Shown here: one piece after another, positions 22,671 to 38,702 of the stretch | Position numbering within the stretch: position 1 is the stretch's first letter | Layout: each line of letters begins with the position of its first letter | Source of the DNA: Catellatospora coxensis | GTDB taxonomy: Bacteria; Actinomycetota; Actinomycetes; Mycobacteriales; Micromonosporaceae | DNA: 64,000 nucleotides | NCBI RefSeq assembly: GCF_016862635.1 | Contig: NZ_BONI01000009.1 | Location: 62,001 to 126,000 of the forward strand | Direction of reading: 5' to 3' | The notes under the pieces: model-generated | Told to the model about the DNA's origin: nothing | Databases searched by the model: none | What the model saw: only the letters and a program-made list of their open reading frames with translations | Program-made: the position numbers and the translations under genes

Positions 22671-25187
22671 TTACTGGAAGGTGATGTGGTCGATGGTGAC
22701 CGTGGAGTTGCCGCCGTACCAGAAGCCCATGGCCAGCTGGGACGGCGAGTTGCGGTTGATGCCGTTGGCGACCATCGGAATCTTGATGTCCTGGTAGCCC
22801 GTCGTGATCACCGGGTGCGCTCCCCCGTCGAGGGTGAAGTCGGCGAACAGCTTCGTCGACCCGCCCAGCCCGAGATTGAAGTGGTTCTGCTCGCCACCGG
22901 CCGCGCCCTTGATCCGGACGACCAGGTACGTGTACGACGACAGGTCCACGCCGACGTCCGAGCCGAACCAGCCGCAGTTGTTGTAGCGCAGGCTCAGCGC
23001 CCCGCCCGTGACCGCGCCCGAACCGCCGCCGTCGAGGAAGCAGTTGCCGCCCGTCCACTTGCCGAGGTCGTTCTGCGAGGCCGCCGGGTACGCCGGGGTG
23101 CCGTCGTAGTTGTCCAGGACCAGCCCGGTCGGCGGCTGCGGCGTCGCGTCCGTGGTCACCGGGACCGTGTTGCTCGCCGCCGACCGGTTCCCGGCCGCGT
23201 CACGCGCCTTGACCGTGTACGAGTACGCGGTCGACGCGGTCAGGCCGGTGTCGGTGTACGAGGTCCCCGCCGGGCTGCCGACCAGGGTCGCGCCCCGGAA
23301 CACCTCGTAGCCCGTCACGCCCACGTTGTCGGTGGACGCCGTCCACGACAGCGACACGGTCGTGTCGGACTTGCCCGGTGACGACAGCGCCGGCGCGCTC
23401 GGCGCGATGCAGTCGCCCGAGCAGCCCGTCGTCGTCGCCGACACGGTCGCCGACGAGCCGGACACGTTGCCCGCGGCGTCGACCGCCCGGACCGTGTACT
23501 GGTAGGTCTGCCCCGGCGAGCGGCCGGTGTCCGTGAACGAGGTCCCCGTCGGGGCGCCGACCTGCGTGCCCCCGCGGAACACCTGGTAGCCGGCGACGCC
23601 CACGTTGTCCGTGGCCGCCGACCACGACAGCGACACGCTCGTGTTCGTCACCCCGGACACGGTGAGCCCGATCGGGGTCGACGGAGCCGTGCAGTCACCC
23701 GTGCAGGAGCCCACGGTGACCGCCGACGCCAGCACGTTGTAGCCCTTGGCCGCGTCCCAGGTGCCGGTGTTGGCGAGCCGGATCGAGTACTCCGGACGGG
23801 ACTGCAGCGCCGCGGTCGGGTCCGGCAGCCAGAGTGCCAGCTTGTAGTTGCCGGCGACGGCCCCGCCGGGCACGGTGACGCTGCCGGTGACGGTGCTCGC
23901 GCCGGCCAGCCAGCTGCGGGCGTCGACGCCGGTCAGCGGCAGGTTGTAGCGGTTGCTGCCGCTGTCGAGCACCAGGTACGCGGTGCGCTGCTTGATCAGC
24001 CCAGACCAGCCGTCGTTGCTGAGGTGCGCGGACAGGCCCAGGCTGCCGCCGGGGGCGACGGTGGTCGGGAAGGTGGCGTCGAGCAGGCGCAGGCGATACC
24101 CCATCTTGCGCTTGATGCGGGTGAAGCAGGTCTCGGCCGGGTCGCTGCCGGAGGCGGCGAGGTTGGCGGCCTTCCACTTGTCGGTGTTGACGGCCGCGTA
24201 GTCCTCGTTGATCTCGGTGAAGTTGAGCTTGTTCATCTCGGTCTGCGCGTTGACGCAGGCGGCGTCGTTGTAGCCGTCGGCGCCGCAGGTCTCCCCGCCG
24301 ACCATCTTGTTGAACCCGGTCGAGGTGGCCAGGTCGTACATCCACTGCTTCTTCTGCTCGATGTAGTACCAGCCCATCCAGGACGGGTTGTCGTAGGTGC
24401 CCATGTCGTTGGCGTCGGCCAGGAAGCAGTCGTTGTGGAAGCTGATCCGGTCCTTCTGCGCCTGGGTCAGCCCGCAGCCCTCGGGCACGACGCAGGAGGT
24501 CGGGTCGACCATCTCCTTGACGTAGATCGGGTAGCGCAACGCCAGGGGGATGCTCGCCGGGGTGGTGTCGGCGATCTTCTTGACGATGCGGTACCGGGCC
24601 GGGGCCTCCTCGACCGAGGACGGGTTGGTCAGGGTGCCGGTGTGCCACTCGCCCCACGCGCCGAGGTAGCCCGTCTCCAGGTGCAGCACGACGTCGGCGT
24701 TCGCGGTGATCACGGCGTTGATCTGGGCGATGTGGGCGAGGATCTGCGACTCGGCGACGCTGGCGTAGCCGTCCCAGGTGTACGCGGGCCGCAGCACGAT
24801 CTTCATCCCGGCGGTGCGGACCGCGGCCAGGCCGGAGGCGAGGTTGTCGAGCAGCGCCTGCGGCAGGGCCTGGGTCTTGTACTTGTCGAGGTGCACGTAG
24901 CTGTGCACCAGGGTGTTGCCGTTGGCCTTGGCGCGGGCGAAGGTCCGGTCGAGCAGGTCCGGGTTGAAGCCGGGGATGGTGGCGGCGTTGACGTAGTCGT
25001 TGACCGCCGGGTCGTTGATGATCTCGTAGCGGTTGTGGTAACCACGCTCCGGGTTGGCGAACGCGGTGGCCAGGTCGGCCTGGTAGGTGACGGTCGCGGC
25101 CTGGGCCGGCGTGGCACCGATCGCCACGGCGGCCACGGTGGCCAGTAACGTTGTCGCGGTGAACATCCGCATGAAGCGGGTGGGCAT
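22671..25187 (-). CDS. Secreted DUF4874/DUF4832 protein with two FN3 domains and a C-terminal carbohydrate-binding-like module
   Basis: 838 residues; signal peptide to about residue 31 (AAVAIGATPAQA). Residues 40-330 form a TIM-barrel-like DUF4874 region starting FANPERGYHNRYE, with YLGAWGEWH (Glu180), LALRYP, FHNDCF (His251, Asp253) and VGGET (Glu299). A DUF4832 beta-domain follows, then two FN3 domains (SVSLSWSAATDNVGVAGYQV; VSLSWTASTDNVGVTGYEV) and a 150-residue module (LDNYDGTPAYP; LGKWTGGNCFLDGGG) nearly identical to that of the next paralogue. Barrel, Glu positions and accessory modules suggest an extracellular glycoside hydrolase, but no activity is known. ATG 25187 follows AGGAAGG. 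Last of four tandem paralogues. Confidence 0.85.
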   Translation of the reverse strand: MPTRFMRMFTATTLLATVAAVAIGATPAQAATVTYQADLATAFANPERGYHNRYEIINDPAVNDYVNAATIPGFNPDLLDRTFARAKANGNTLVHSYVHLDKYKTQALPQALLDNLASGLAAVRTAGMKIVLRPAYTWDGYASVAESQILAHIAQINAVITANADVVLHLETGYLGAWGEWHTGTLTNPSSVEEAPARYRIVKKIADTTPASIPLALRYPIYVKEMVDPTSCVVPEGCGLTQAQKDRISFHNDCFLADANDMGTYDNPSWMGWYYIEQKKQWMYDLATSTGFNKMVGGETCGADGYNDAACVNAQTEMNKLNFTEINEDYAAVNTDKWKAANLAASGSDPAETCFTRIKRKMGYRLRLLDATFPTTVAPGGSLGLSAHLSNDGWSGLIKQRTAYLVLDSGSNRYNLPLTGVDARSWLAGASTVTGSVTVPGGAVAGNYKLALWLPDPTAALQSRPEYSIRLANTGTWDAAKGYNVLASAVTVGSCTGDCTAPSTPIGLTVSGVTNTSVSLSWSAATDNVGVAGYQVFRGGTQVGAPTGTSFTDTGRSPGQTYQYTVRAVDAAGNVSGSSATVSATTTGCSGDCIAPSAPALSSPGKSDTTVSLSWTASTDNVGVTGYEVFRGATLVGSPAGTSYTDTGLTASTAYSYTVKARDAAGNRSAASNTVPVTTDATPQPPTGLVLDNYDGTPAYPAASQNDLGKWTGGNCFLDGGGSGAVTGGALSLRYNNCGWFGSDVGVDLSSYTYLVVRIKGAAGGEQNHFNLGLGGSTKLFADFTLDGGAHPVITTGYQDIKIPMVANGINRNSPSQLAMGFWYGGNSTVTIDHITFQ

Positions 25188-25215
25188 GGCAGCCTTCCTG
25201 TGCATCGGGAGGGTA

Positions 25216-25252
25216 GGCCGCCTGGCCGGGTCGGGAGCCCTGCCAGGCGGCC
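25216..25252 (-). terminator. Intergenic hairpin between DUF4832 genes
   Basis: A perfect 11-bp stem (25216-25226 with 25242-25252, 15-base loop) lies 3' of the gene at 25259-27931 and before the next start at 25187. It may terminate transcription or protect upstream mRNA. Confidence 0.55.
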
Positions 25253-25258
25253 GGGCGA

Positions 25259-27931
25259 CTACTGGAACGAGATGTGGTCGATGGTGACGGTAGAGTTGCC
25301 CCCGTACCAGAAGCCCATGGCCAGCTGGGACGGGCTGTTGCGGTTGATGCCGTTGGCCACCAGCGGGATCTTGATGTCCTGGTAGGACGCCGTGATCACC
25401 GGATGCGCGCCGCCGTCGAGGGTGAAGTCGCCGAACACCTTCGTCGAGCCGCCCAGACCCAGGTTGAAGTGGCTCTGCTCGCCGCCTGCCGTGCCCTTGA
25501 TCCGCACGACCAGGTAGGTGTACGAGCTGAGGTCCACACCGACGTCGGAGCCGAACCAGCCGCAGTTGTTGTAGCGCAGGCTCAGCGCCCCGCCGGTGAC
25601 GACGCCGTTGCCGCCGCCGTCGAGGAAGCAGTTGCCGCCGGTCCACTTGCCGAGGTCGTTCTGGTTCGCCGACGGGTACGCGGGCGTGCCGTCGTAGTTG
25701 TCCAGCACCAACCCGGTCGGCGGCTGCGGCGCCGCATCCGTGGTGACCGCGACCGCATTGCCGGCCGCAGACCTGTTCCCGGCCGCGTCCCGTGCCTTGA
25801 CGGTGTAGCTGTAGGCCGTGTTCGCGGTCAGCCCCGTGTCGGTGAACGACGTGCCCGTCGGGCTGCCGACCAGCGTCGCGCCCCGGAACACCTCGTAACC
25901 GGTCACCCCCACGTTGTCCGTCGACGCCGTCCAGGACAGCGACACGCTCGTGTCGGTCTTCGACGGTGCGGACAGAGTGGGAGAACTCGGGGCGGTGCAG
26001 TCACCCGCGCAGCCCGTGGTGGTGGCCGACACCGATGCAGACAAACCGGACACATTCCCGGCCGCGTCGAGCGCCCGGACCGTGTACTGGTAGGTCTGCC
26101 CCGGCGAGCGCCCACTGTCGGTGTACGTCGTCCCGGTCGGCGAACCGACCTGGACCCCGTCGCGCAGCACCTGGTAGCCGGTCACGCCGACGTTGTCGGT
26201 CGAGGCCGACCAGGACAGCGCGACGCTGGTGTCGGTCACCCCGGTGACCGCGAGGTTCGCGGGCGTCGACGGTGCGGTGCAGTCGCCGGTGCAGGTGCCC
26301 GAGGTGCTGACCGCGCCGAGGTTCACCCAGCCGTCCGCGCCCTGGTTGGTGTTGGCGAACGACAGCGGCAGGCGCGGCCGCCACTGGTCGATGATCCAGT
26401 CGGTGAGCCTGCTCGCGGCGGGACGGGCGCGCAGCACGTCCTGGGTCACCGCCTCCAGGGGGTTGCGCACCTTCAGGACCAGGCTGTAGCTGCCCGCGGG
26501 CACGCCCGCGGTGCTGACGGTCGTGGCGAAGTTGACCGGCCGGCCGAAGTCGAGGTACTTCGGGTCGGCGCCCACGTTCCAGTCCGGGAAGGCGCGGATC
26601 TTCAAGGGCTGCACGGTGCGCAGGTCCCAGCTGGTGTCCCAGGTCTTCACGACCGCTCCCGCGCTGTTGCGCAGGCCGAGCTGCACCGTCCACGGGTAGT
26701 AGAACGGGGCGACGCCGTCGTTCTGCATCGTGACGCCGACCTTGAACGTGCCCGAGGCGGTCGCGTTGAAGTTGGCCTGCGGGATGTGCAGGTTGTAACC
26801 CATCTTGCGGACACCGGCGGACACCTTCGGGTCGCTGGTGCTGTACCCGCCCGCGCCGGTCTGGTTGATCATCCAGGTGATGTGGGTCAGCTCGGTCGCC
26901 GCCAGCACGTCGTCGACCTGCCCGGAGCCGCCCGGCCAGTTGGCGTAGAGGGTGCCCTGGATCTCGGGCCGGGCCTCGCCGCCGATGGACTGGGTGACCC
27001 ACCGGTTCTCGGTGCCGGTGTTGAGCTGGAGCTGGAGGAACGCGTCCTCCCAGCCGTTCATCGACATCGGCAGGGTCATGCTCTTGAGCTGCCCGCCGTT
27101 GCGGAACTCCTTGTACGGCCAGGAGTCGTCGTGGAAGCCGATGTTCGCGGTCTCGGTGCCCGCGAGCGGGTAGCGGACCTCCAGCTGGATGTTGTCGAAC
27201 GCGGTGTCGTACGCCCCGATGATGGTGCGGATCGTGTTGTCGGTCGGCATCAGGTTCGGGTAGCCGTCGGCCAGGTCCCGGTCGTACGGCCAGGTGTGCC
27301 ACTCGCCCCACAGGCCGACCAGGCCCAGCGACATGAACCCGATGCGCGGGTCGGCGGTGCCGCCCGGCCCGGCCTTGTCGTAGCGGGCCGCGAACGCGTT
27401 GATGAAGGTGACCAGCGCGCTGATGACGTCCGGGTCGTCGTAGTCGGGGCTGACGGTGCCCCAGAACCCGTTGGTGCGCAGCGCCATCTTGCCGTTCAGG
27501 CACGGCGGGATGCCGTTGCCGGGGTGCGTGCCGCTGCCGCCGGGATACTCCAGGTAGAAGCGGAACGCGGTCTGGCGGCTCCAGACGGCGGCCTCGTCGA
27601 GCGCCTTCTCGAACACGCTCCAGTCGATGTTCGCGCAGCTGGCCGGGTCCTTCATCACCTCGTTGAGGGCGAAGTAGCTCCAGACCAGGCCGCCGGGGTA
27701 CTTGGTGGACAGGTTGTCGCCGGGGAAGAGGTAGGGGGCGAACCCCTTCAGCGGCTGGCCGAGGGCGGCGTCGGCGTAGGTGTAGGAGTGGGTGGTCAGG
27801 CTGGTGTCGGGGCCGGGACCGGCCGGCGGCCGGGCGGGCGGGCCCGCGGGTGCGGCGGCCGCGCTGGTGGCGACCAGCGCGATCGTCAGTGCCGCCGCCG
27901 TGGTGGCGAACAGCTTGCGTAGGGATGGCAT
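25259..27931 (-). CDS. Secreted DUF4832 protein with two FN3 domains and a C-terminal carbohydrate-binding-like module
   Basis: 890 residues; signal peptide to about residue 27. The catalytic-like region (50-535) contains GQPLKGFAPYLFPG, RFYLEYPGG, GLVGLWGEWHTWPYD (Glu210, His212), VRYPLAG, GFHDDSW (His267-Asp269), GGEARPE (Glu319, Glu323) and LTHITWMIN. These are shared with the two upstream paralogues and look like active-site positions of a retaining-type barrel hydrolase. FN3 domains at about 553-640 and 648-733 and the 738-890 module follow. The last 330 residues are nearly the same as in the downstream paralogue, indicating recent duplication or gene conversion. Substrate unknown; probably a plant or microbial polysaccharide. 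Confidence 0.85.
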   Translation of the reverse strand: MPSLRKLFATTAAALTIALVATSAAAAPAGPPARPPAGPGPDTSLTTHSYTYADAALGQPLKGFAPYLFPGDNLSTKYPGGLVWSYFALNEVMKDPASCANIDWSVFEKALDEAAVWSRQTAFRFYLEYPGGSGTHPGNGIPPCLNGKMALRTNGFWGTVSPDYDDPDVISALVTFINAFAARYDKAGPGGTADPRIGFMSLGLVGLWGEWHTWPYDRDLADGYPNLMPTDNTIRTIIGAYDTAFDNIQLEVRYPLAGTETANIGFHDDSWPYKEFRNGGQLKSMTLPMSMNGWEDAFLQLQLNTGTENRWVTQSIGGEARPEIQGTLYANWPGGSGQVDDVLAATELTHITWMINQTGAGGYSTSDPKVSAGVRKMGYNLHIPQANFNATASGTFKVGVTMQNDGVAPFYYPWTVQLGLRNSAGAVVKTWDTSWDLRTVQPLKIRAFPDWNVGADPKYLDFGRPVNFATTVSTAGVPAGSYSLVLKVRNPLEAVTQDVLRARPAASRLTDWIIDQWRPRLPLSFANTNQGADGWVNLGAVSTSGTCTGDCTAPSTPANLAVTGVTDTSVALSWSASTDNVGVTGYQVLRDGVQVGSPTGTTYTDSGRSPGQTYQYTVRALDAAGNVSGLSASVSATTTGCAGDCTAPSSPTLSAPSKTDTSVSLSWTASTDNVGVTGYEVFRGATLVGSPTGTSFTDTGLTANTAYSYTVKARDAAGNRSAAGNAVAVTTDAAPQPPTGLVLDNYDGTPAYPSANQNDLGKWTGGNCFLDGGGNGVVTGGALSLRYNNCGWFGSDVGVDLSSYTYLVVRIKGTAGGEQSHFNLGLGGSTKVFGDFTLDGGAHPVITASYQDIKIPLVANGINRNSPSQLAMGFWYGGNSTVTIDHISFQ

Positions 27932-27985
27932 GTACCGGTGTTCCCTTCGGGGACGAGGTTCGTAGAACAGGAAGGGTTCGGTGCG

Positions 27986-28014
27986 GGCGCCGCCGGCCGG
28001 GTGCCGGCGGCGCC
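27986..28014 (-). terminator. Intergenic hairpin between DUF4832 genes
   Basis: A perfect 12-bp GC stem (27986-27997 with 28003-28014, loop CGGGT) lies 3' of the single-domain DUF4832 gene on the minus strand. Confidence 0.55.
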
Positions 28015-28040
28015 GAGGTGCGGGTGGTGCGGCGGCGCCG

Positions 28041-29405
28041 TCAGCGGGTGGTGACGGAGCCGAGGTGCAGCCAGCCGGTGTGGGTGTCCTGGCTGGTGTT
28101 GGCGAACCGCAACGGGATGCCGTTGGGCAGCGGGTTGGCCACGCGCAGCACGAGGCCGTAGCTGCCGGGGCGCAGGCCGCGGGTGTCGATGCGGGTGGTC
28201 AGCTCGGCGGGGTCCTGGCCGGGCTGGATGCCGGCGACCGTCCAGTCGGTCTTCCAGCGCCTGACGACACGGCCCTGGCCGTCGACGGCGGCCAGCTCGG
28301 CGCGCCAGTCGTAGTAGAAGGGCGCGGTGCCGCGGTTGGCCACGCGCACCGACACCCGGTCGCGGGACAGCGCCGCCTCGGTGACGGTCAGCTCGTAGCC
28401 CAGCGACTTCGACGCGGCCAGGGCGCGGAAGTACTCGTCGCCGGTGTAGCCGTCGTTCGCGAACGCCGCATGGTTGATCATCCAGCTGATGTGGGTCAGG
28501 TCGACGGACTGCGTGAAGTCCTCGTACTGGCCGCAGCTGACGGGCTGCTCGAACAGGCAGGACTGGATCTCGGGGCGCAGCTCGCCGCCGACGGGCTCGC
28601 GCTGCCACTTGCCGGTGACGCCCTCGTCGATGAGGCGCTGCACGAAGTGCCAGGACTGCACGGGCAGCGTCTCGAAGGCGAACGAGTCGTCGTGGTAGCC
28701 GATGCCCAGCTCCTTGTTCTGCGGGCTCGGGTAGCGGGCCAGCAGCCGGGTCCTGTCGAACGAGGTCTCGAAGGTGTTGAGGATGCCGGTGAGGATCTCG
28801 GTGGACGGCATCCAGTTCTCGGGCTTGGTCCAGCCGTCGTACGGCCAGGTGTGCCACTCGCCCCAGAAGCCGATCAGGCCGAGGGTGAGGAAGCCGATGC
28901 GCGGATCGCCGTCGTACCTGCGCCCGAGCGCGGTGATGAAGTTCTGCACGGCGCTGACCAGGCGCGGGTCGCTGTAGTCGGGGGCGACGCTGACGCCGTT
29001 GTTGCCGAAGTCGTCGTAGGCGTGCGTGGCCAGGCCCTGGTCCAGCAGGTACTGCGGGATGCCGGTGGGCTTGCCCGGGTAGTCCAGATAGAACCGGAAC
29101 ACGGCCTGGTGGCCGCGCGCGGCGATCGCGTTGAGCTGCCGTTCCACGGCGTCCCAGCGGAACCGGTCCGGGCCGGTCATGACGTCGCGGACCGGCAGGT
29201 AGAACCATTCCATGCTGTACGGGAAGGTCTGGTAGCTGCCCGCGTACGGCATGAAGCCCTTGAGCGGGTTGTCGGCGGGCGCGGAGGTGTAGGTCAGCGG
29301 CGTCCACTGCGGTTCGGTGGGCGCGGGCCGGGCCGCGGCGGGCGTGCCCGCGGCGAGGGTGAGCGCCGCCAGCAGGGCGACGGTGATACGTGCTGCTCTT
29401 CTCAT
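28041..29405 (-). CDS. Secreted DUF4832 protein, single catalytic-like domain
   Basis: 454 residues; signal peptide to about residue 25 (LLAALTLAAGTPAAA). It is the minimal paralogue: only the barrel plus beta-domain, with no FN3 or binding module. Conserved positions are DNPLKGFMPY, RFYLDYPG, GLIGFWGEWHTWPYD (Glu183, His185), LARYPSP, GYHDDSF (His238-Asp240), GGELRPE (Glu275, Glu279) and LTHISWMIN. The end, IPLRFANTSQDTHTGWLHLG, matches the barrel-module boundary of the larger paralogues. Its existence without accessory domains shows which part carries the core function. Role inferred only: extracellular carbohydrate-active protein. Confidence 0.83.
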   Translation of the reverse strand: MRRAARITVALLAALTLAAGTPAAARPAPTEPQWTPLTYTSAPADNPLKGFMPYAGSYQTFPYSMEWFYLPVRDVMTGPDRFRWDAVERQLNAIAARGHQAVFRFYLDYPGKPTGIPQYLLDQGLATHAYDDFGNNGVSVAPDYSDPRLVSAVQNFITALGRRYDGDPRIGFLTLGLIGFWGEWHTWPYDGWTKPENWMPSTEILTGILNTFETSFDRTRLLARYPSPQNKELGIGYHDDSFAFETLPVQSWHFVQRLIDEGVTGKWQREPVGGELRPEIQSCLFEQPVSCGQYEDFTQSVDLTHISWMINHAAFANDGYTGDEYFRALAASKSLGYELTVTEAALSRDRVSVRVANRGTAPFYYDWRAELAAVDGQGRVVRRWKTDWTVAGIQPGQDPAELTTRIDTRGLRPGSYGLVLRVANPLPNGIPLRFANTSQDTHTGWLHLGSVTTR

Positions 29406-29430
29406 GTGGGCTTCCTCGGTCGGGGGTGGG

Positions 29431-29457
29431 CCGGCCAGGCCCCCGTCGCCTGGCCGG
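29431..29457 (-). terminator. Intergenic hairpin between DUF4832 genes
   Basis: A perfect 10-bp stem (29431-29440 with 29448-29457, 7-base loop) built on CCGGCCAGGC lies 3' of the first gene of the cluster. The same CGCCTGGCCGG-type sequence recurs in the 25216 hairpin. Confidence 0.5.
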
Positions 29458-29472
29458 AGTGCGCGGGCAGGG

Positions 29473-32355
29473 TCAGCCGACGGTGATGCGGTCGATGTCG
29501 GGAGCCCAGCCGGAGGGGTTGGCGACGGTGATCGTGTTGTTGCCCGCGGCCAGATTGAGGGTGACCGTGACGGTGCCGACGGTGTCCCAGTTGGCGGTGG
29601 GCGCGAAGTTCACCGTCTGGCCGTTGACCGTGGCGGAACGTGCCACGGCCGACAGGTAGTGGATCGTCACGGTGCGCGCGCCGCCCGTGCCGCCGGCGAC
29701 GTTGTTGAACGACAGGGTCGCGCCGCTGCCGACGTAGCCGACCTTCGAACCGCCCGAGCAGGCCGCGCAGGATGCCACGGCCGCGGTGCCGGTCCGGGTG
29801 TTGCCGGAGGACTCGGCCTCGTAGCTGACGGGTGTCGTGCCGCCCGCGTTGGTCGTCACGGTCAGCGGGCTCGACGCGGCCGAGTAGTTGCCAGCGGCGT
29901 CATAGGCCTTGACCGTGTACGTGTAGGCGGTCGACGCAGCCAGTCCGGTGTCGGTGAAGCCGGTGCTCGTCGAGGTGCCGACCGGGCTGCCCCCACGCAG
30001 GATCTGGTATCCGGTCACGCCGACGTTGTCGGTCGAGCCGCTCCACGACAGCGTGACCGAGTTGGCGGTCTTGCTCGGCGAGGCCAGGCCCGTGGGGGCG
30101 CTCGGCGCGGTGGTGTCGCCTCCGCCGCCCGCGGTGGACACGGTGATGCGGTCGATGTCGGGAGCCCAGCCGGACGGGTTGGCGATGGTGATGGTGTTGC
30201 TGCCGGCGGCGAGGTTGAGCGTGACGGCGGTGGAGCCGACGGTGGTCCAGCTACCGGTCGAGGCGAAGTCGACGGTCTGCCCGTTGACCACGGCGGTGCG
30301 CGCCTCGGCCGTCAGGTAGTAGATCGTCACCGTCCGCGAACCGCCGGTGCCGCCCGCGACGTTGTTGAACGCCATCGACGCCCCGTTGCCGAGGTAGCCG
30401 ACCTTCGACCCGCCCGAGCATGTGCCGCAGGACGCCGTCAGCGCGCCGCCGGACAGCGTGTTGCCCGACGCCTCAGCCTCGTGGGTCACCGCACCGCCGC
30501 CGCCCGCCGAGGTGGAGGCGGTGACCGTGCTGCTCGCCGCCGACCGGTTCCCGGCGGCGTCGCGGGCCTTGACCGTGTAGCTGTAGCTCGTCGACGCGGC
30601 CAGGCCGGTGTCGGTGAACGTCGTCCCGGTCGGGCTGCCGACCAGCGTCGCGCCACGGAACACCTCGTAGCCGGTCACCCCGACGTTGTCCGTCGAGGCG
30701 GACCAGGACAGCGAGATCGACGACGACGTCTGGCCGGTGGAGGTGATGCCCGTCGGGACCGAGGGCGCGGTGGTGTCGCCGCCGCCGGTGCCGACGGTCA
30801 CCGCGCCGAGGCCGAGCCAGCCGTCCGCGTTCTGGGTGGTGTTGGCGAAACGCAGCTTCTTGGCGTCGGCGTCGACGGTCTCCAGCGGGTTCTTGACGCG
30901 CAGGACCCACTGGTAGCTGCCCTGCGGCACCGCGGAGAGGCTGACGCTGGTCTGGAAGTACTGCGGGTAGCCGAAGCTGCGGTACGTGGGATCGGATCCC
31001 ACGTTCCAGTCGGGGAACGCCCGGATGGAGAGCGGCTGGACGGTACGCAGGTCCCAGGGGGTGTCCCAGGTCTGCACCACGGCGCCCGAGCTGTTCTTGA
31101 GCCCGAGGGTCATGGTCCACGGGTAGTAGAACGGGGCGACGCCGGTGTTGCTGATCTGCACGCCGACGTTGGTCGTGCCGGAGGCGGTGTCCTTGAAGTA
31201 CGAGTTGTTGACGCTGAGGTTGTAGCCCATCGCGCGCACCGCGGCCGAGACGTTGGCGTCGGTGGGCGAGTAGGCGGCACTCCCCTCGTTGATCATCCAG
31301 CTGGCGTGGGCGAGCTCGATGCACGCCTTGAGGTTGTCGACGGTGCCGGAGCCGTTCGGCCAGGACTGGAACGCGAAGGTCTGGATCTCGGGGCGCAGCT
31401 CACCGCCGATCGAGCTGCTGATCCACTTGTTCTCGGTGCCGGTGGCGATGTTGCGCTGCAGGTGGGCGTAGGAGGCACCGCCCAGGGACGTCGGCAGGGT
31501 CACGCCCTGCAGGGGTGAGCCTTCCCGGAAGCAGAACGAGTCGTCGTGGTAGCCGATGTCGCGGGAGTTGGCCGCGCCGCCGGCCGCGTCGGCGTAGCGG
31601 ATCTCCACCTTGGTGGTGTTGAACGCGGTGTCGAAGGCGGCCACGAGCTGCGCCCCGTTGGCGTCGGTGGGCATGTAGTTGGGCAGCCCGTCAGCGGTGT
31701 CGGTGTCGTAGGGCCAGGTGTGCCACTCGCCCCACAGCCCGACCAGGCCCAGGTGGATGAACCCGAGCCGGGAGTCGCCGTCGTAGCGGGCCCCGAACGC
31801 GGCGATGAAGTTCTTCAGCGCGTTGATCAGGAACGGGCTGTCGTAGTCGGGGTGCGTGACGTTCCACGTGGCGTCGGCGCGGGTGGCGACGTTGCCGTTG
31901 AAGCACGGCGGGATGGCGTTGGCCGGATGGCTGCCGGTGCCCCCGGGGTACGTCATGTAGATGCGGATGGCGGCCTGGTTGCCGTAGCCGGCGGTCTCGG
32001 CCAGCATGCTGTCGATGATCGACCAGTTGTAGCTGCCGCAGTTCGAGGCGCTGGTCATGATCTCGGACAGGCCGAAGTAGCCCCAGGTCAGCGAGTGCGG
32101 GAAGCCGTTGTTCTGGTCACCGCCGGGCGAGTAGAACCTGGCCCAGCCCTTGAGCGGGTTGTCCACCGGCCCCGGAGCGGCGCTCAGGGCGTGGACCTGC
32201 AGGGACGGGTCGGGGCTGGCGGGCGCCGCGGGACGGGACGGCGGTCCGGCGGGAGCGGCTGACGCGCCGGCCGGGCCGACGAGCGTCAGGGCCGCGCCGA
32301 GGGCGGCGGTGGCGAGTGCGGCCAGGACGGTACGGCCGCGTGAACGTGATTTCAC
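29473..32355 (-). CDS. Secreted DUF4832 protein with two FN3-CBM6/35-like pairs
   Basis: 960 residues; signal peptide to about residue 33. The DUF4832 region (60-520) has DNPLKGWARFYSPGG, RIYMTYPGG, GLVGLWGEWHTWPYD (Glu210, His212), EIRYAD, GYHDDSF (His270-Asp272), GGELRPE (Glu319, Glu323) and LAHASWMINE. Then come FN3 (530-617), a CBM6/35-like beta-sandwich (623-740, VTHEAEASGNTLSGG to PSGWAPDIDRITV), FN3 (748-836) and a second CBM6/35-like domain (842-960). The two binding modules are similar tandem copies. CBM6/35 families bind beta-glycans, galactans or uronic acids. GTG 32355 follows GGAG. It is the first gene of the four-gene array, divergent from the sugar importer. Confidence 0.86.
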   Translation of the reverse strand: MKSRSRGRTVLAALATAALGAALTLVGPAGASAAPAGPPSRPAAPASPDPSLQVHALSAAPGPVDNPLKGWARFYSPGGDQNNGFPHSLTWGYFGLSEIMTSASNCGSYNWSIIDSMLAETAGYGNQAAIRIYMTYPGGTGSHPANAIPPCFNGNVATRADATWNVTHPDYDSPFLINALKNFIAAFGARYDGDSRLGFIHLGLVGLWGEWHTWPYDTDTADGLPNYMPTDANGAQLVAAFDTAFNTTKVEIRYADAAGGAANSRDIGYHDDSFCFREGSPLQGVTLPTSLGGASYAHLQRNIATGTENKWISSSIGGELRPEIQTFAFQSWPNGSGTVDNLKACIELAHASWMINEGSAAYSPTDANVSAAVRAMGYNLSVNNSYFKDTASGTTNVGVQISNTGVAPFYYPWTMTLGLKNSSGAVVQTWDTPWDLRTVQPLSIRAFPDWNVGSDPTYRSFGYPQYFQTSVSLSAVPQGSYQWVLRVKNPLETVDADAKKLRFANTTQNADGWLGLGAVTVGTGGGDTTAPSVPTGITSTGQTSSSISLSWSASTDNVGVTGYEVFRGATLVGSPTGTTFTDTGLAASTSYSYTVKARDAAGNRSAASSTVTASTSAGGGGAVTHEAEASGNTLSGGALTASCGTCSGGSKVGYLGNGASMAFNNVAGGTGGSRTVTIYYLTAEARTAVVNGQTVDFASTGSWTTVGSTAVTLNLAAGSNTITIANPSGWAPDIDRITVSTAGGGGDTTAPSAPTGLASPSKTANSVTLSWSGSTDNVGVTGYQILRGGSPVGTSTSTGFTDTGLAASTAYTYTVKAYDAAGNYSAASSPLTVTTNAGGTTPVSYEAESSGNTRTGTAAVASCAACSGGSKVGYVGSGATLSFNNVAGGTGGARTVTIHYLSAVARSATVNGQTVNFAPTANWDTVGTVTVTLNLAAGNNTITVANPSGWAPDIDRITVG

Positions 32356-32508: not shown

Positions 32509-32559
32509 CGAAGTAATACGAAGAGGTGTTGACAAAATTTCGAAGGTCTACATCATTAT
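32509..32559 (+). promoter_or_regulatory. Candidate promoter and operator region of the sugar importer
   Basis: This AT-rich stretch is unusual for the window. TTGACA (32529-32534) is followed after 16-19 bases by CATCAT/CATTAT (32551-32559). CGAAG occurs three times (32509, 32519 and 32541), about one and two helical turns apart. It lies between the divergent DUF4832 array and importer, where the ROK repressor encoded at 37533 could act. Confidence 0.5.
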
Positions 32560-32613
32560 TCGAGAGCGGGGCGGCTGGCAAGAGCCGACCGATAGACGGA
32601 TCCGAGGACGTTG

Positions 32614-33495
32614 ATGAGCTCGACAAAACCGCGAGACGACCGGCGGGCGGCGTGGCTGTTCCTGCTGCCGGTGCTGGTCGGATTCGCCGTCTTCTACGGC
32701 TACCCGGCCGCCCGGGGCGTGTGGTACTCGGTCACCGACTACAACATGCTCAACACGGCGACGTACGTCGGCGCGGAGAACTACACCAAGCTGCTGCAAG
32801 ACGACCAGTTCTGGAACGCCATGCTGGTCACGGCCTGGTACGTGGTGCTCAACATCGGCTCGCAGACGCTGCTGGCGCTGGGCATCGCGACGCTGATGCA
32901 CCGGCTGACCCGCTCGGTGGTGCTCCGGGCGACGCTGCTGCTGCCGTGGCTGGTCCCCAACGTCACCATCGGCCTGCTCTGGATGTGGCTGCTGGACACC
33001 AACCTCGGGTTCGTCAACCAACTGCTGCACACCGTCGGCCTGGGCCCGGTCGGCTTCTTCACCGACGAGACCTGGGCGATGCCGACCGTGGCCGGCATCA
33101 ACACCTGGGCGTACACCGGCTACACGGCGCTGCTGCTCTACGCCGGGATGCTGCAGATCCCGCAGTACCTGTACGAGGGCGCGTCGATCGACGGCGCCGG
33201 CGAGTGGCGCATGTTCCGCCGGATCACGCTGCCGCTGCTGCGGCCGGTGCTCGCGCTGGTGCTGGTCGTGTCGCTGATCGGCTCGTTCCAGATCTTCGAC
33301 ACCATCGCGGTCACCACCAAGGGCGGCCCGGTCTCGGCCACGCAGGTCATCTACTACTTCATCTACCTGCAGGCGTTCAAGTACTTCCACATGGGCTACG
33401 CCGCCGCGGCGGCGGTCTTCCTGGCCCTGATCCTCGGCGTGCTCACCGCGATACAGATGCGCCTGCTGCGCGCCTCGCGCTCGGACCTGGCGTGA
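32614..33495 (+). CDS. Sugar ABC transporter permease (MalF/UgpA-like)
   Basis: About 293 residues with six membrane segments. The first begins at AWLFLLPVLVGFAVFYGYPA, and the EAA-type loop contacting the ATPase reads YEGASIDGAGEWRMFRRITLPLL (EGA-x-x-DGA). This is the MalFGK-type permease of carbohydrate uptake-1 importers. ATG 32614 with GAGG upstream is used. The second permease starts 15 bases after its stop, and the lipoprotein gene follows. No ATPase gene is present; in actinomycetes such importers usually share the MsiK ATPase encoded elsewhere. Confidence 0.93.
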   Translation: MSSTKPRDDRRAAWLFLLPVLVGFAVFYGYPAARGVWYSVTDYNMLNTATYVGAENYTKLLQDDQFWNAMLVTAWYVVLNIGSQTLLALGIATLMHRLTRSVVLRATLLLPWLVPNVTIGLLWMWLLDTNLGFVNQLLHTVGLGPVGFFTDETWAMPTVAGINTWAYTGYTALLLYAGMLQIPQYLYEGASIDGAGEWRMFRRITLPLLRPVLALVLVVSLIGSFQIFDTIAVTTKGGPVSATQVIYYFIYLQAFKYFHMGYAAAAAVFLALILGVLTAIQMRLLRASRSDLA

Positions 33496-33509: not shown

Positions 33510-34394
33510 ATGACCCGCAGAACCTTCAACCCCGGACGCGCGCTGGCCTGGGTGGCGATGGCCGTCGTCATCGTGGTGACCGTCTTCCCCTTCTGGTGGA
33601 TGATCCGCACCGCGCTCACCCCGGCCGCCGACATCTACACCGACAACGCGAGCCTGCTGCCGGAACACCCGACGCTGATCAACTTCCTGCGGGTGCTCGG
33701 CCTGACCAGCGAGGCCGAGGCCCGCGCGGCGGGCGGGTCCGGGGCGCACCTCGACTTCGCCGGCTACCTGTGGAACTCGATCGTGTACTGCGGCCTCATC
33801 GCCGCCGTGCAGACCCTGTTCTGCGCGATGGCCGGTTACGCGTTCGCCCGGCTGCGCTTCCCCGGCCGCGACCTGGTGTTCGCGATCGTGATCGCGGCGC
33901 TGATGGTGCCGCCGATCTTCACGCTGCTGCCCAACTTCATCCTGGTCAAGGACCTCGGCTGGATGAACACCATGGCCGGTATGGTCGCCCCCACGATCCT
34001 GATGACGCCGTTCGCGGTGTTCTTCCTGCGCCAGTTCTTCCTGTCGCTGCCCCGCGACGTGGAGGAGGCGGCGATCCTCGACGGCAACGGCCCCTGGGGC
34101 ATCTTCTGGCGCATCGCGCTGCCGATGAGCCGCGGCCCGCTGATCACGATCGGTCTCACCACGACCGTGTGGGCCTGGAAGGACTACCTGTGGCCGCTGC
34201 TGGTCGGCCGTGACGAGGAGAACCGCCTGGTCACCGTCGCGCTCGGGGTGTTCCTGCAGCAGTCGCCCAACACCCAACCCGACTGGACCGGCCTGATGGC
34301 CGCCTCGACGCTGTCGGTCCTGCCCGTGCTGCTCCTGCTCGTCTTCGTGGGCAAGCGGCTGGTCCAGTCCCTGAACTTCACCGGAAGCAAGTGA
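33510..34394 (+). CDS. Sugar ABC transporter permease (MalG/UgpE-like)
   Basis: 294 residues with six membrane segments. The EAA loop is VEEAAILDGNGPWGIFWRIALP and the C-terminus FVGKRLVQSLNFTGSK is typical of MalG-type partners (family end GxxKG/GSVK). It pairs with the preceding permease to form the membrane channel of an oligosaccharide importer. An insertion around EAEARAAGGSGAHLDFAGYL in the first periplasmic loop is as found in relatives for larger sugars. Translation probably couples to the gene before it (15-base gap). Confidence 0.93.
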   Translation: MTRRTFNPGRALAWVAMAVVIVVTVFPFWWMIRTALTPAADIYTDNASLLPEHPTLINFLRVLGLTSEAEARAAGGSGAHLDFAGYLWNSIVYCGLIAAVQTLFCAMAGYAFARLRFPGRDLVFAIVIAALMVPPIFTLLPNFILVKDLGWMNTMAGMVAPTILMTPFAVFFLRQFFLSLPRDVEEAAILDGNGPWGIFWRIALPMSRGPLITIGLTTTVWAWKDYLWPLLVGRDEENRLVTVALGVFLQQSPNTQPDWTGLMAASTLSVLPVLLLLVFVGKRLVQSLNFTGSK

Positions 34395-34423
34395 CACACC
34401 CACCCCCGAGAAAGAAGGAAATG

Positions 34424-35773
34424 ATGATCCGCACATCACGGGTCGGGGCGGCGCTGCTGACCCTGGCTGTGGCGGCCGGCGTGGCCGCGTGCAGCAGCAC
34501 CACCGAGGAGGAGCCCGGCGCCGCCGTCACCCTCGACTACTGGCTGTGGGACGACAACCAGAAGGCGTCCTACCAGCAGTGCGCCGACGAGTTCACCAAG
34601 GCCAACCCGAACATCACCATCAAGATCAGCCAGGCGGCCTGGAACGAGTACTGGCAGAACCTGACCACGCAGATCGCCGCGGGGGACGCGCCGGACGTGT
34701 GGACCAACCAGGGCTCGTACTACCCGCAGTTCGTCAGCTCCGGCCAGATCCTCGACATCCAGCCCTACGTCACCGCCGACAAGGTGGACCTGTCGCAGTA
34801 CCAGGGCGGCCTGGCCGACCTGTTCACCAAGGGCGACCAGCGCTTCGGCCTGCCGAAGGACTGGGACACCATGGCCCTGGTCTACAACACCGAGCACCTC
34901 AAGGCCCAGGGCATCGACGCCGCGTCACTGGCGAACCTGACCTGGAACCCGACCGACGGTGGCACCTTCGAGCAGCTCATCGCCAAGGCCACGGTCGACG
35001 AGAAGGGTCGCAACGGCCTGGACCCGGCGTTCGACAAGACCAAGGTCAAGGTGTTCGGCTACCTGCCGGAGTGGGCCGACGGCTCGCAGGGCCAGAACGG
35101 CTGGGGCAACCTGGCCGCCAGCAACGGGTTCACCTACCTCGACAAGAACCCGTGGGGCACCCAGTACAAGTACGACGACCCCAAGCTGGCCCAGACCATC
35201 GACTGGTTCAAGTCGCTGAGCGCCAAGGGTTACGCCCCCGCGCTGGACAAGGCGTCCACGCTGAGCCGGGACTCCCTGCTCAACGCGGGCAAGGGCGCGA
35301 TCACCTTCGCGGGCTCCTGGATGATCAACAGCTACCTGGGTGAGGGCGCGAAGCTGAAGTTCGCGTTCGCGCCGCTGCCGGCCGGCCCGCAGGGCCGCAA
35401 GACGGCGATCAACGGCCTGTCGGACGCGATCTGGGCCGGCACCAAGCACAAGGACGAGGCCTGGAAGTGGGTCAAGTTCCTGGGCTCGGCCGACTGCCAG
35501 AACATCGTGGGCGGCAACGGCGTGGTCTTCCCCGCCATCAAGACCGCCAGCGAGAAGGCCCTGGCCGCGCACACCGCCAAGGGCCGCGACGTGAAGGTGT
35601 TCGTCGACGAGGCCGCCGCGCCCGGTGGCACGTTCTTCGTGCCGATCACCGAGCACGGCAACGAGGTCAGCCAGCTCGTGCAGGACGCCATCCAGTCGGC
35701 GATCCTCGGCCAGAGCGACTCGGCCACCGCGCTGAAGAAGGCCAACGACCAGGTCAACGCCCTGTTCAAGTAG
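34424..35773 (+). CDS. Sugar ABC transporter substrate-binding lipoprotein
   Basis: About 449 residues with a lipoprotein signal peptide (LLTLAVAAGVAAC; the Cys is the lipidation site). It is a group 1 solute-binding protein: YWLWDDNQKASYQQCADEFT, GDAPDVWTNQGSYYPQF, GLPKDWDTMALVYNTEHLKA, GKGAITFAGSWMINSY and an aromatic-rich cleft expected for oligosaccharides. ATG 34424 lies 4 bases after AAGGA; ATG 34421 is alternative. It belongs to the importer operon and probably binds the product released outside by the DUF4832 enzymes; this is inference from position. Confidence 0.93.
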   Translation: MIRTSRVGAALLTLAVAAGVAACSSTTEEEPGAAVTLDYWLWDDNQKASYQQCADEFTKANPNITIKISQAAWNEYWQNLTTQIAAGDAPDVWTNQGSYYPQFVSSGQILDIQPYVTADKVDLSQYQGGLADLFTKGDQRFGLPKDWDTMALVYNTEHLKAQGIDAASLANLTWNPTDGGTFEQLIAKATVDEKGRNGLDPAFDKTKVKVFGYLPEWADGSQGQNGWGNLAASNGFTYLDKNPWGTQYKYDDPKLAQTIDWFKSLSAKGYAPALDKASTLSRDSLLNAGKGAITFAGSWMINSYLGEGAKLKFAFAPLPAGPQGRKTAINGLSDAIWAGTKHKDEAWKWVKFLGSADCQNIVGGNGVVFPAIKTASEKALAAHTAKGRDVKVFVDEAAAPGGTFFVPITEHGNEVSQLVQDAIQSAILGQSDSATALKKANDQVNALFK

Positions 35774-35867: not shown

Positions 35868-37364
35868 ATGGCACTGCTCATCGAGCTGGCCGGCCACACT
35901 TTCGCCCTCGAACACGACGGCCCCGGCAGCCCGCAAGCAGCCGACGGGGGCCTGGTCCTGCCACCGGGACGGGTCGCGTTGCTGCACGGACTGGGCGATG
36001 CCCTGTTCTACCGGCACGGGCACAACTCTTGGAGCCCCTGCGGCTGGCGGCGGCTGAGCGAGGCTCCGCTGCGCATCGCCAACCCGCAGCGGCGGCTCAC
36101 CGCCGACGACACCGTCTGGGACGACCCGGCCCGCCACCACTCCTCCGCGGTGGCCGCCCTGGACGCCGGTGACGGCGACATCCTGCTGCTGGGCGCGCTC
36201 GGACTGGGCGTGCCGCGGCTGGCCGCCGACCGGGACACCATCTCCGGCTGGTACGAGACCGGCGCGCACCCGTGGTTCGCCGCGTACGGCCCCGAGGACG
36301 AGGTGTTCGCCGCGTACACCCGGCAGCTGGCCGAGCGCCTGGGCAGCAGCAGCCGCCGCGCCGGCAACGTCTGGTGCTCCTGGTACGCCTACTACGAGAC
36401 CATCACCGAGCAGCAGCTGGCCAAGGACGTCGACGACCTGCGCGGGTTGCCGTTCGACGTGGTGCAGGTCGACGACGGCTGGGAGCGGCTGGTCGGCGAC
36501 TGGCAGCCCAACCACAAGTTCCCGTCCGGCATGAAGGCCCTCGCGGACCGGATCACCGACGCGGGCATGACGGCCGGGCTGTGGCTGGCCCCGTTCATCG
36601 CCCTGCCCGGCTCCGAGCTGGCCCGCGAGCACCCGGAGCTGCTGCTGCGCGACGCGCGCGGCAAGCTCGTGATCGCCGGCAACAACTGGGGCAGCGGGTA
36701 TCACGCCCTCGACCTGTCCCGGCCCGACACCCGCGAGTACCTGGCCGAGCTGACCCAGCGGGTGGTGCACGAGTGGGGCTTCAAGTACCTGAAGCTCGAC
36801 TTCGTCAACGCCGGGGCGGCCCCGGGCGTACGCGCCGACGGCGGCGAGCGCGAGCAGTCCTACCGCGACGCGCTGGCGCTGATCCGCGAGGTCGCCGGGG
36901 ACGACGTCTACCTGCTGGGCAGCGGGGCGATGCTGCTGCCGTCGCTGGGCATCCTCGACGGGCTGCGCAGCGGGCCGGACGTCGCGCCGATGTGGCAGAA
37001 CTACGCCAGCGACGACCCGTCGGACGCGATGGCCCGCAACGCCGTCGTGAACACGCTGCACCGGTTGTGGCAGCAGCCGCTGGCCGAGGTCGACCCCGAT
37101 GTCATCTACTTCCGCAGCCGGCTGAACCTGCTCACCGAGCAGCAGCTGGAGTGGCTGCGGGACCTGGCCGACATCTGCCGGTTCCGGGCCGTGTCCGACC
37201 CGCCGAGCTGGCTGTCGGCCACCGAGCTGGACGACATGACCGGTTACCTGGCGGCGCGGCCGGACGTCCGGCGGCTGGGCCGTTACGAGTACGCCGTCGG
37301 TGGGCGGCGGGCGGACTTCACCGCGGCGGTCACCCCCGCGGCGCAGGCGTACCCCATCTCCTGA
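35868..37364 (+). CDS. Glycoside hydrolase family 36-type alpha-galactosidase, intracellular
   Basis: 498 residues, no signal peptide. The barrel carries NVWCSWYAYYETI, VVQVDDGWER, LWLAPFIALPGSEL and FKYLKLDFVNA, where Asp311 of KLD is the expected nucleophile, and LRSGPDVAP, where Asp371 is the expected acid/base. It is shorter than classical 700-residue GH36 enzymes, as in the compact actinobacterial branch, because the N-terminal beta-sandwich is reduced. Members remove terminal alpha-galactose or related sugars from imported oligosaccharides. AAGGAG precedes ATG 35868. Position after the importer genes places it in the same pathway. Confidence 0.88.
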   Translation: MALLIELAGHTFALEHDGPGSPQAADGGLVLPPGRVALLHGLGDALFYRHGHNSWSPCGWRRLSEAPLRIANPQRRLTADDTVWDDPARHHSSAVAALDAGDGDILLLGALGLGVPRLAADRDTISGWYETGAHPWFAAYGPEDEVFAAYTRQLAERLGSSSRRAGNVWCSWYAYYETITEQQLAKDVDDLRGLPFDVVQVDDGWERLVGDWQPNHKFPSGMKALADRITDAGMTAGLWLAPFIALPGSELAREHPELLLRDARGKLVIAGNNWGSGYHALDLSRPDTREYLAELTQRVVHEWGFKYLKLDFVNAGAAPGVRADGGEREQSYRDALALIREVAGDDVYLLGSGAMLLPSLGILDGLRSGPDVAPMWQNYASDDPSDAMARNAVVNTLHRLWQQPLAEVDPDVIYFRSRLNLLTEQQLEWLRDLADICRFRAVSDPPSWLSATELDDMTGYLAARPDVRRLGRYEYAVGGRRADFTAAVTPAAQAYPIS

Positions 37365-37532: not shown

Positions 37533-38702
37533 GTGACAGAGTTAGCTACCACCGGAACGGATCTGCCGCGGCTGCGCGAGCTCAACTCGTTGAGCATCGT
37601 GCGCGCGCTGCGTGACCACCCGCCGTCCACCGTCACCGAACTGTCCCAGCGCACCGGCCTGTCCCGGCCCGCCGTGGACGTCATCGCCCAGGGGCTGGTC
37701 ACCGACGGCTGGGCCACGGTACTCGAACCCGGCGCGAGCAGCGCCGTCGGCCGCCCCGCCCGGCGCTACCAGTTCCGCGCCGGAGCCGGGTACGTGGTGG
37801 GCGTCGACGTGGGCGTGCACAAGATCCTGGCGCTGCTGGCCGACCTCGACGGCAACATCGTGCAGTCCGTACGGCAGTCCGTCGCCGCCGAGGCCGCGCC
37901 CGCCGAACGTCTCGCCGTGCTCGACGCCGTGCTGGACGCCTGCGTGGCCGGGGCCGGCAAGTCCCCGGGCGACATCTGGGCCGTCACCGCCGCGGTCACC
38001 GGCGCCGTGGACGCCGCCGGGCGGACCAGCTTCTTCACCCCGCTGCCGGGCTGGAAGAGCGTCGACCTGGCCGGGCACCTCGGCGGGCGCTTCTCCTGCC
38101 CGATCGTGGTGGAGAACGACTGCAAGCTGGCCGCGCTGGCCGAGCGGTGGAAAGGCGCGGCGACCGACGCCGACGACATCGTCTACCTGCTCGGCGGCAT
38201 GCGCAACGGCGCCGGCCTGATCATCGACGGGGTGCTGCGGCGCGGGTTCGGCGGCGCGGCCGGTGAGATCGGCGCGCTCAAGCACGTGCGCTGGCTCAAC
38301 GCCCCCTCGCACCTGCAGAACTGCCCCGGCGTGCCCGACACGGTCAGCCCCGACGACGCCGCGGCCTGGGTCTTCAACGCCGCCCGGCAGGGCGACAAGG
38401 CGGCCCGTGGCGCGGTCAATCGCTACGTCAAGGACCTCGCCGTCGGCGCGGCCGCGCTGGTGCTCACCCTGGACCCGCAGGTGGTCGTGTTCGGCGGCGG
38501 CTTCTCCCGGTCCGCCGATCTGGTGCTCGACCCGCTGCGCCACGAACTCCAGCGCCTATGCCTGCGGATGCCGGAGGTGCGCGCGTCCACGCTGGGCGCC
38601 GACTCGGTCGCCCTCGGCGCACTGAAGCTGTCCCTGAACGAGGTCGACACCCGCCTGTTCAGCGCGGGCCTGTCCGCCCCCGTCGCACCGCGCCGCCACT
38701 GA
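37533..38702 (+). CDS. ROK-family transcriptional repressor
   Basis: 389 residues. An N-terminal winged helix (RLRELNSLSIVRALRDHPP, then TELSQRTGLSRPAVDVIAQG) is followed by a ROK sugar-kinase-like domain (VVGVDVGVHKILALLADLDG; VENDCKLAALAERW; GAGLIIDGVLRRGFGGAAGE). The ROK zinc motif H-x-CxCGxxGCxE, needed for kinase activity and often kept in repressors, is not recognisable: the region reads LKHVRWLNAPSHLQNCPG. So it is probably a pure sugar-responsive regulator. GTG 37533 follows AAGGGA. It likely controls the importer and perhaps the DUF4832 array, releasing DNA when it binds a pathway sugar. Confidence 0.88.
   Translation: MTELATTGTDLPRLRELNSLSIVRALRDHPPSTVTELSQRTGLSRPAVDVIAQGLVTDGWATVLEPGASSAVGRPARRYQFRAGAGYVVGVDVGVHKILALLADLDGNIVQSVRQSVAAEAAPAERLAVLDAVLDACVAGAGKSPGDIWAVTAAVTGAVDAAGRTSFFTPLPGWKSVDLAGHLGGRFSCPIVVENDCKLAALAERWKGAATDADDIVYLLGGMRNGAGLIIDGVLRRGFGGAAGEIGALKHVRWLNAPSHLQNCPGVPDTVSPDDAAAWVFNAARQGDKAARGAVNRYVKDLAVGAAALVLTLDPQVVVFGGGFSRSADLVLDPLRHELQRLCLRMPEVRASTLGADSVALGALKLSLNEVDTRLFSAGLSAPVAPRRH

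Follow-up and report, generated by a model that had tools for sequence, protein, structure and literature searches.

Positions 22671-32355 of the window (the whole stretch of Catellatospora coxensis DNA that was analysed, 64,000 nt) hold four adjacent minus-strand genes, D1 to D4, which encode proteins with DUF4832 cores as the earlier note had claimed, each with a signal-peptide-like stretch at its start as read from the sequence (Table 1). The likely start codons are ATG at 25187 (or 25205) for D1, ATG at 27931 for D2, ATG at 29405 for D3 and GTG at 32355 for D4. The whole genome gave four matches to PF16116 (DUF4832), every one inside this cluster, and D3 shares 91-94% identity with its counterparts in four Catellatospora species. 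D4-D1 are divergent from the genes for two permeases and the solute-binding protein of a sugar ABC importer, a GH36-type alpha-galactosidase and a ROK-family regulator. The position of the tandem genes beside a sugar importer, proposed before, was confirmed and extended to the GH36 and ROK regulator genes, whose linkage is conserved. Neither an importer ATPase gene nor a recognisable GalNAc-use gene was found in the gene set of the locus. The genes next to D1, cydA and cydB, were rejected as partners because neither has a match in any of the 20 relatives' stretches.

Table 1. Features of the D1-D4 locus in the window.
Feature	Coordinates	Strand	Content or basis
D1	22671..25187	-	canonical DUF4874-DUF4832 barrel, secreted, with two fn3 and an unassigned C-terminal module; Glu180, Glu299
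D2	25259..27931	-	secreted DUF4832 core, two fn3, D1-like C-terminal module; Glu210 and Glu319
D3	28041..29405	-	bare DUF4832 core, secreted; Glu183 following strand 4, Glu275 ending strand 7
D3 Glu275 codon (strand-7 Glu)	28581..28583	-	arithmetic from D3 coordinates
D3 Glu183 codon (strand-4 Glu)	28857..28859	-	arithmetic from D3 coordinates
D4	29473..32355	-	secreted DUF4832 core, two fn3-CBM6/CBM35 units; Glu210 and Glu319
Promoter-like site towards importer	32529..32556	+	consensus match only
Promoter-like site in the D4-D1 direction, overlapping that of the importer	32552..32581	-	consensus match only
Sugar ABC importer permease 1	32611..33495	+	PF00528; synteny
Sugar ABC importer permease 2	33510..34394	+	PF00528; synteny
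Importer solute-binding protein	34391..35773	+	PF01547; synteny
GH36-type alpha-galactosidase, without evident signal peptide	35868..37364	+	best PDB match 6lcj, E 1e-109
ROK-family regulator with HTH domain	37533..38702	+	domain match; synteny

The proposal that three of the proteins carry additional modules while one is a bare core held for fn3 (D1, D2 and D4), CBM6/CBM35 (D4) and the bare D3. The C-terminal modules of D1 and D2 gave no Pfam CBM match and are only presumptively carbohydrate-binding. The fn3-fn3-C-terminal parts of D1 and D2 (22671-23723 and 25259-26315) share 84% DNA identity over 1059 bases, unlike the barrels of the two genes, between which no DNA match was found; the shared C-terminal parts suggest module exchange or gene conversion. 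Within the C-terminal half of D4 (29473-30790) the fn3-CBM unit is duplicated in tandem, the two copies sharing 77% identity over about 656 bases. A G+C-rich hairpin of 12 pairs (z -2.5) lies in the D3-D2 gap (27930-28042) and a long G+C-rich hairpin (z -1.7) in the D1-cydA gap, both without a T run.

A scan of 10 kb detected two promoter-like sites, where shuffled sequence would give 0.3, and both are in the interval that separates D4 from the first permease gene. Counting the window, 29 of 41 rows have TTGACA within 160 nt upstream of the permease gene. A shared palindromic operator, sought in 17 of these 41 upstream stretches, gave no clear result, the promoter core being all that recurred. 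The ROK protein may control the overlapping divergent promoters.

The D genes and GH36 occurred together in 15 of 20 same-family stretches, with importer and ROK genes linked to them. Among 150 genomes of the family, DUF4832 was present in 42 and GH36 in 34, in 33 of the latter at 69% identity or more. All 33 genomes with this close GH36 carry a DUF4832 match 4112-4629 bases away from it, and the genome with the remaining GH36 (38% identity) lacks DUF4832; the Fisher value for this association, 2.7e-25, treats related genomes as independent and is not readable as a probability. Among the best 80 of 367 loci, GH36 was found at 45% identity or more in 37, the importer at 40% or more in 42 and at 25% or more in 53, and a set of galE, GHL15 and PelF-like genes in 7; 20 loci, some of them on short contigs, contained neither importer nor GH36 nor this set. 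In Leifsonia, Microbacterium, Agromyces and Cellulomonas the same gene set as in the window is rearranged, mostly on one strand.

The PF16116 cut-off of 29.2 bits is passed by all four proteins (D1 165.9, D2 39.8, D3 29.6 and D4 35.5). Only D1 passes the PF16173 (DUF4874) cut-off of 30.1 bits, with 107.2 (D2, D3 and D4 score 20.7, 18 and 12.3); therefore we regard D1 as canonical and D2-D4 as a divergent subfamily. Profile A4, which is led by the D3 query row and itself includes D1 types, matched the canonical profile A2 with a probability of 100 (E 1.6e-56), the two being homologous over nearly their full length, and all 92 rows of A4 match PF16116 at E up to 1. Alignment A2 retrieved three canonical members from viral contigs and alignment A1 none; the three were accompanied by none of the queried neighbour genes.

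AlphaFold2 models of D3 residues 27-454, from the 92-row alignment (mean pLDDT 96.8, pTM 0.93), and of D1, from a 28-row alignment (pLDDT 83.5, pTM 0.87), show a (beta/alpha)8 barrel followed by a beta-sandwich. With strands numbered by our reading of the DSSP element order, D3 has Arg104 on strand 3 and both His238 and Asp240 on strand 6; Glu183 comes after strand 4, and Arg224 and Glu275 lie at the ends of strands 5 and 7, respectively. The Glu pair of D1 occupies the same strand places. As predicted structures, both models have the 4/7 layout usual for hydrolases and seen in clan GH-A (strand-4 Glu, Glu at the end of strand 7, (beta/alpha)8 barrel), which supports the earlier note's proposal of a hydrolase with a barrel-like region. 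Glu183 and Glu275 of D3 would form the catalytic pair, with Arg104, Arg224 and Asp240 at the corresponding ends of strands 3, 5 and 6. In D1, DUF4874 matches over barrel strands 1-5 and DUF4832 over the remaining three, 6-8, together with the sandwich, and therefore each DUF holds one of the two Glu; judged by the model, the two Pfam entries are two parts of one barrel. PMC12345266 reserves the name DUF4832 for the sandwich; in Pfam, the match on D1 takes in barrel strands 6-8 as well.

Foldseek searches with the predicted structures returned hydrolase-type barrels as the best solved folds. GH35 beta-galactosidases came first for D3 (E 7e-9), and a GH14 beta-amylase came first for D1 (E 2.3e-7), with PslG/GH39 and GH5 also among the D1 matches; the query-normalised TM-scores were low for both (0.33-0.36 in the top ten for D3, 0.35-0.39 for D1). 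The GH14 and GH35 matches agree with the likeness to beta-amylase and beta-galactosidase given for the Streptococcus protein SIR_1591 in PMC12345266. Among viral predicted structures, the best match to the D3 model was an annotated DUF4832 protein (E 3.6e-31). BFVD entry A0A8S5R645, a 731-aa annotated DUF4832 protein from an Ackermannviridae contig, matches the D3 model with a TM-score of 0.78.

The positions given earlier for the first Glu and for the Glu of GGE were reproduced in all four proteins (Table 1), as were RYP in D1-D3 and RYA in D4. The H-D/N-D motif was recovered as HDD in D2-D4 and HND in D1, but its His is not fixed in the wider family, the Pel-operon members described below, for example, having YND instead; the final Asp of the motif is kept in 47 of 48 rows. 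In A4, Glu183, Glu275, Asp240, Arg224 and Arg104 are each present in 92 of 92 rows, a count that is biased for Glu183 because the genome-scan pattern contained the first Glu; the other four residues lie outside the pattern. Among 48 rows picked without the motif, by HMM or tblastn match and including some near-duplicates, Glu183 was retained in 47, Glu275 in 46, Asp240 in 47, Arg104 in 47 and Arg224 in 45. With both Glu present in 46 of these motif-independent rows, the pair is nearly invariant across the aligned DUF4832 relatives. At Arg224, two Enterobacteriaceae plasmid members show an alignment gap, and the distant member L139 lacks Arg224 as well as Glu275. L139 (L139:9923-12673) is 916 aa long, matches DUF4832 below the cut-off and is encoded among PTS genes in a small genome.

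The other exception, an Acidisarcina protein (L055:9953-11302), has lost Glu183, Glu275, Asp240 and Arg104 and is likely inactive. Because of it, degenerate DUF4832 members must be taken to exist, and together with the fn3 and CBM modules this would suit barrels that bind sugar without catalysis and keep a polymer at the cell surface. For D1-D4 such a function is very improbable, as all four window proteins and nearly all independently picked relatives retain both Glu, and SIR_1591 is reported to be active.

PDB sequences searched with D3 alone and with A4 gave nothing up to E 10. By profile comparison, GH14 was rejected (hhalign probabilities of 1.3 and 0.1 with a single GH14 sequence), as were GH35 (3.8, 6-row profile), GH42 (0.2 and 16.1) and GH114 (0.2, 6-row profile), and GH135, GH166 and GH191 were absent among the best 25 Pfam families listed for the 92 members. 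One Pel-operon member has a Pfam GH42 match below the cut-off (19.2 of 21 bits). In clan GH-A, an Asn before the strand-4 Glu is a signature accompanying the 4/7 layout; the DUF4832 proteins have Gly instead of Asn at this place in 92 of 92 A4 rows. The earlier note had suggested a retaining mechanism, which we do not endorse: the strand-4 Glu follows Gly, and the best solved folds are GH35 for D3 but the inverting GH14 for D1. GH14 beta-amylases, whose two Glu follow strand 4 and sit at strand 7, are inverting and provide a precedent for cleavage of axial alpha-D bonds in a 4/7 barrel, should the bond here be of that kind.

These comparisons bear on the alternative that the D proteins are retaining clan GH-A-type hydrolases cutting a beta-linked backbone with alpha-galactosyl side groups (e.g. 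galactomannan or arabinogalactan), the intracellular GH36 removing the side groups. The GH35 beta-galactosidases as best solved folds for D3, PslG/GH39 and GH5 among the D1 matches and the GH42 match of the Pel-operon member are consistent with this assignment. We nevertheless consider it unlikely, given that the strand-4 Glu lacks the preceding Asn, that neither the GH35 nor the GH42 profile comparison is significant, and that SIR_1591 disperses an alpha-GalNAc-type polymer.

The statement in the earlier note that DUF4832/DUF4874 have no defined activity is out of date, SIR_1591 having been reported as an active glycoside hydrolase in 2025 (PMC12345266). According to that paper, the purified protein disrupts S. 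intermedius Pel aggregates about as well as PelAh and is called a glycoside hydrolase, the assay being one of dispersal; deletion of its gene is described as giving no phenotype, and the word 'catalytic' is absent from the paper's main text (PMC12345266). In five relatives located in Pel operons (L159-L162 and L165), a DUF3492 PelF-type transferase is encoded in every locus, and PelG was confirmed in L159, L160, L161 and L165. The gene order in L161 is CotH, VTC, DUF4956, DUF4832 and epimerase, which, the epimerase apart, is described for streptococci and clostridia in PMC7112168. The A4 profile matched the five Pel-operon members over 389 columns with a probability of 100 (E 6.1e-46), with RF, WGEWH, R-P, ND and GGE in register and both Glu aligned. 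Genome G478, which is small and has a weak match, was rejected as a SIR_1591 host; its DUF4832 gene sits among PTS genes.

Arthrobacter-group loci (L049, which is on a plasmid, L083, L090, L094, L095, L096, L098 and L126) contain DUF4832 in an exopolysaccharide-like set with galE, GHL15 (PF14885), a DUF3492 transferase and a membrane protein without a Pfam match. The transferase is 25% identical to PelF of L161 (E 4e-44), and the membrane protein has no clear match to PelG (E 0.13). The Arthrobacter/Pseudarthrobacter DUF4832 members share 51-55% identity with D3. In a quick tree with many long branches, the Arthrobacter group branched within the GH36-linked D3 members; those from the five Pel operons formed one clade outside D2-D4. 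Plasmid capsule clusters of Enterobacter and E. coli (L048 and L052) end in a DUF4832 gene adjoining galE; these Enterobacteriaceae members are too divergent to carry a substrate argument by themselves.

Membership in Pel operons, in the galE/PelF-like loci of the Arthrobacter group and in capsule loci beside galE would be expected of hydrolases for dispersal or remodelling, which trim the exopolysaccharide made by their own cell or set it free and are not nutrient enzymes. For D1-D4 we regard this as improbable, since the genes divergent from the window cluster encode an importer, a cytoplasmic GH36 and a ROK regulator rather than glycosyltransferases. A nutrient role is what the D1-D4 locus would imply.

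Altogether, homology, fold prediction, residue conservation and gene linkage make it highly probable that D1-D4 are glycoside hydrolases. The GH36 partner, the action of SIR_1591 on Pel and the Arthrobacter-group members beside galE, GHL15 and DUF3492 genes point to an alpha-galactosyl/galactosaminyl substrate. An alpha-galactosyl-type substrate is probable on these grounds, and the chance of a Pel- or galactosaminogalactan-type polymer in particular falls slightly below even. In PMC12054363, galactosaminogalactan is described as containing Gal, GalNAc and GalN, and Pel as lacking Gal, so the alpha-galactosidase partner would fit galactosaminogalactan better than Pel. Alternatively, GH36 could trim alpha-Gal side groups of a beta-linked polymer.

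Taken as a whole, our preferred reading, to which we give a probability of roughly 0.6, is that D1-D4 are secreted hydrolases of an alpha-galactosyl/galactosaminyl polymer feeding the importer and GH36 pathway. Outside the cell, the D enzymes would cleave a polymer of the Pel or galactosaminogalactan type that is rich in alpha-linked galactose, galactosamine or both, the pieces would enter via the ABC importer, and the cytoplasmic GH36 alpha-galactosidase would finish them. A further-reaching proposal, which we hold to be doubtful, is that DUF4874-DUF4832 constitutes one new GH family, GH14-like and inverting, acting on axial alpha-galactosaminyl/galactosyl links and unrelated in sequence to known galactosaminidases, with the locus as a complete nutrient pathway for fungal galactosaminogalactan or bacterial Pel. 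If this were true, soil actinomycetes would eat the matrix of fungi and biofilms. An unsequenced galactosaminidase of Streptomyces griseus receives mention in PMC12054363, and DUF4874-DUF4832 enzymes might account for it.

Part of the hydrolase claim is already in print for the distant member SIR_1591. New are the barrel and residue map, the splitting of one barrel over two Pfam entries and the conserved catabolic locus, which suggests the substrate class. If the preferred reading is true, two Pfam entries of 'unknown function' are parts of the same enzyme, each contributing one member of the catalytic pair, and the many proteins in which they occur could therefore be re-annotated as glycoside hydrolases. 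The locus would moreover add a conserved catabolic setting to a family known from one biofilm-dispersal assay, point to alpha-galactosyl/galactosaminyl polymers of fungal walls and biofilms, and name a partner enzyme and an importer.

Some Gram-positive sugar-use loci combine a CUT1-type importer, a cytoplasmic glycosidase and a ROK or LacI regulator. The window locus resembles them in having importer, cytoplasmic glycosidase and regulator, and differs in that its secreted step belongs to an unclassified family present in up to four copies and in having no importer ATPase gene. GH14 beta-amylases, the best Foldseek match of D1, share the placing of the two Glu at strands 4 and 7, but show no significant profile match to DUF4832 and differ in beta-sandwich and setting. 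GH35 and GH42 of clan GH-A, the former being the best Foldseek match of D3, share the 4/7 layout, but their profile match is not significant and DUF4832 has Gly before the strand-4 Glu. The galactosaminidases of GH114, GH135, GH166 and GH191, as they are presented in PMC12054363, are likewise barrels and act on the suspected substrate class, but the GH114 profile is unrelated to DUF4832. Proteins of the SIR_1591 type are also close, judged by the five Pel-operon members compared. The members seen stand in a biosynthetic setting, in one copy and without fn3 or CBM, are about 23% identical and have Tyr in place of the His of HDD; yet they share with the D proteins the barrel and sandwich, near-full-length homology, both Glu, Arg224 and Asp240.
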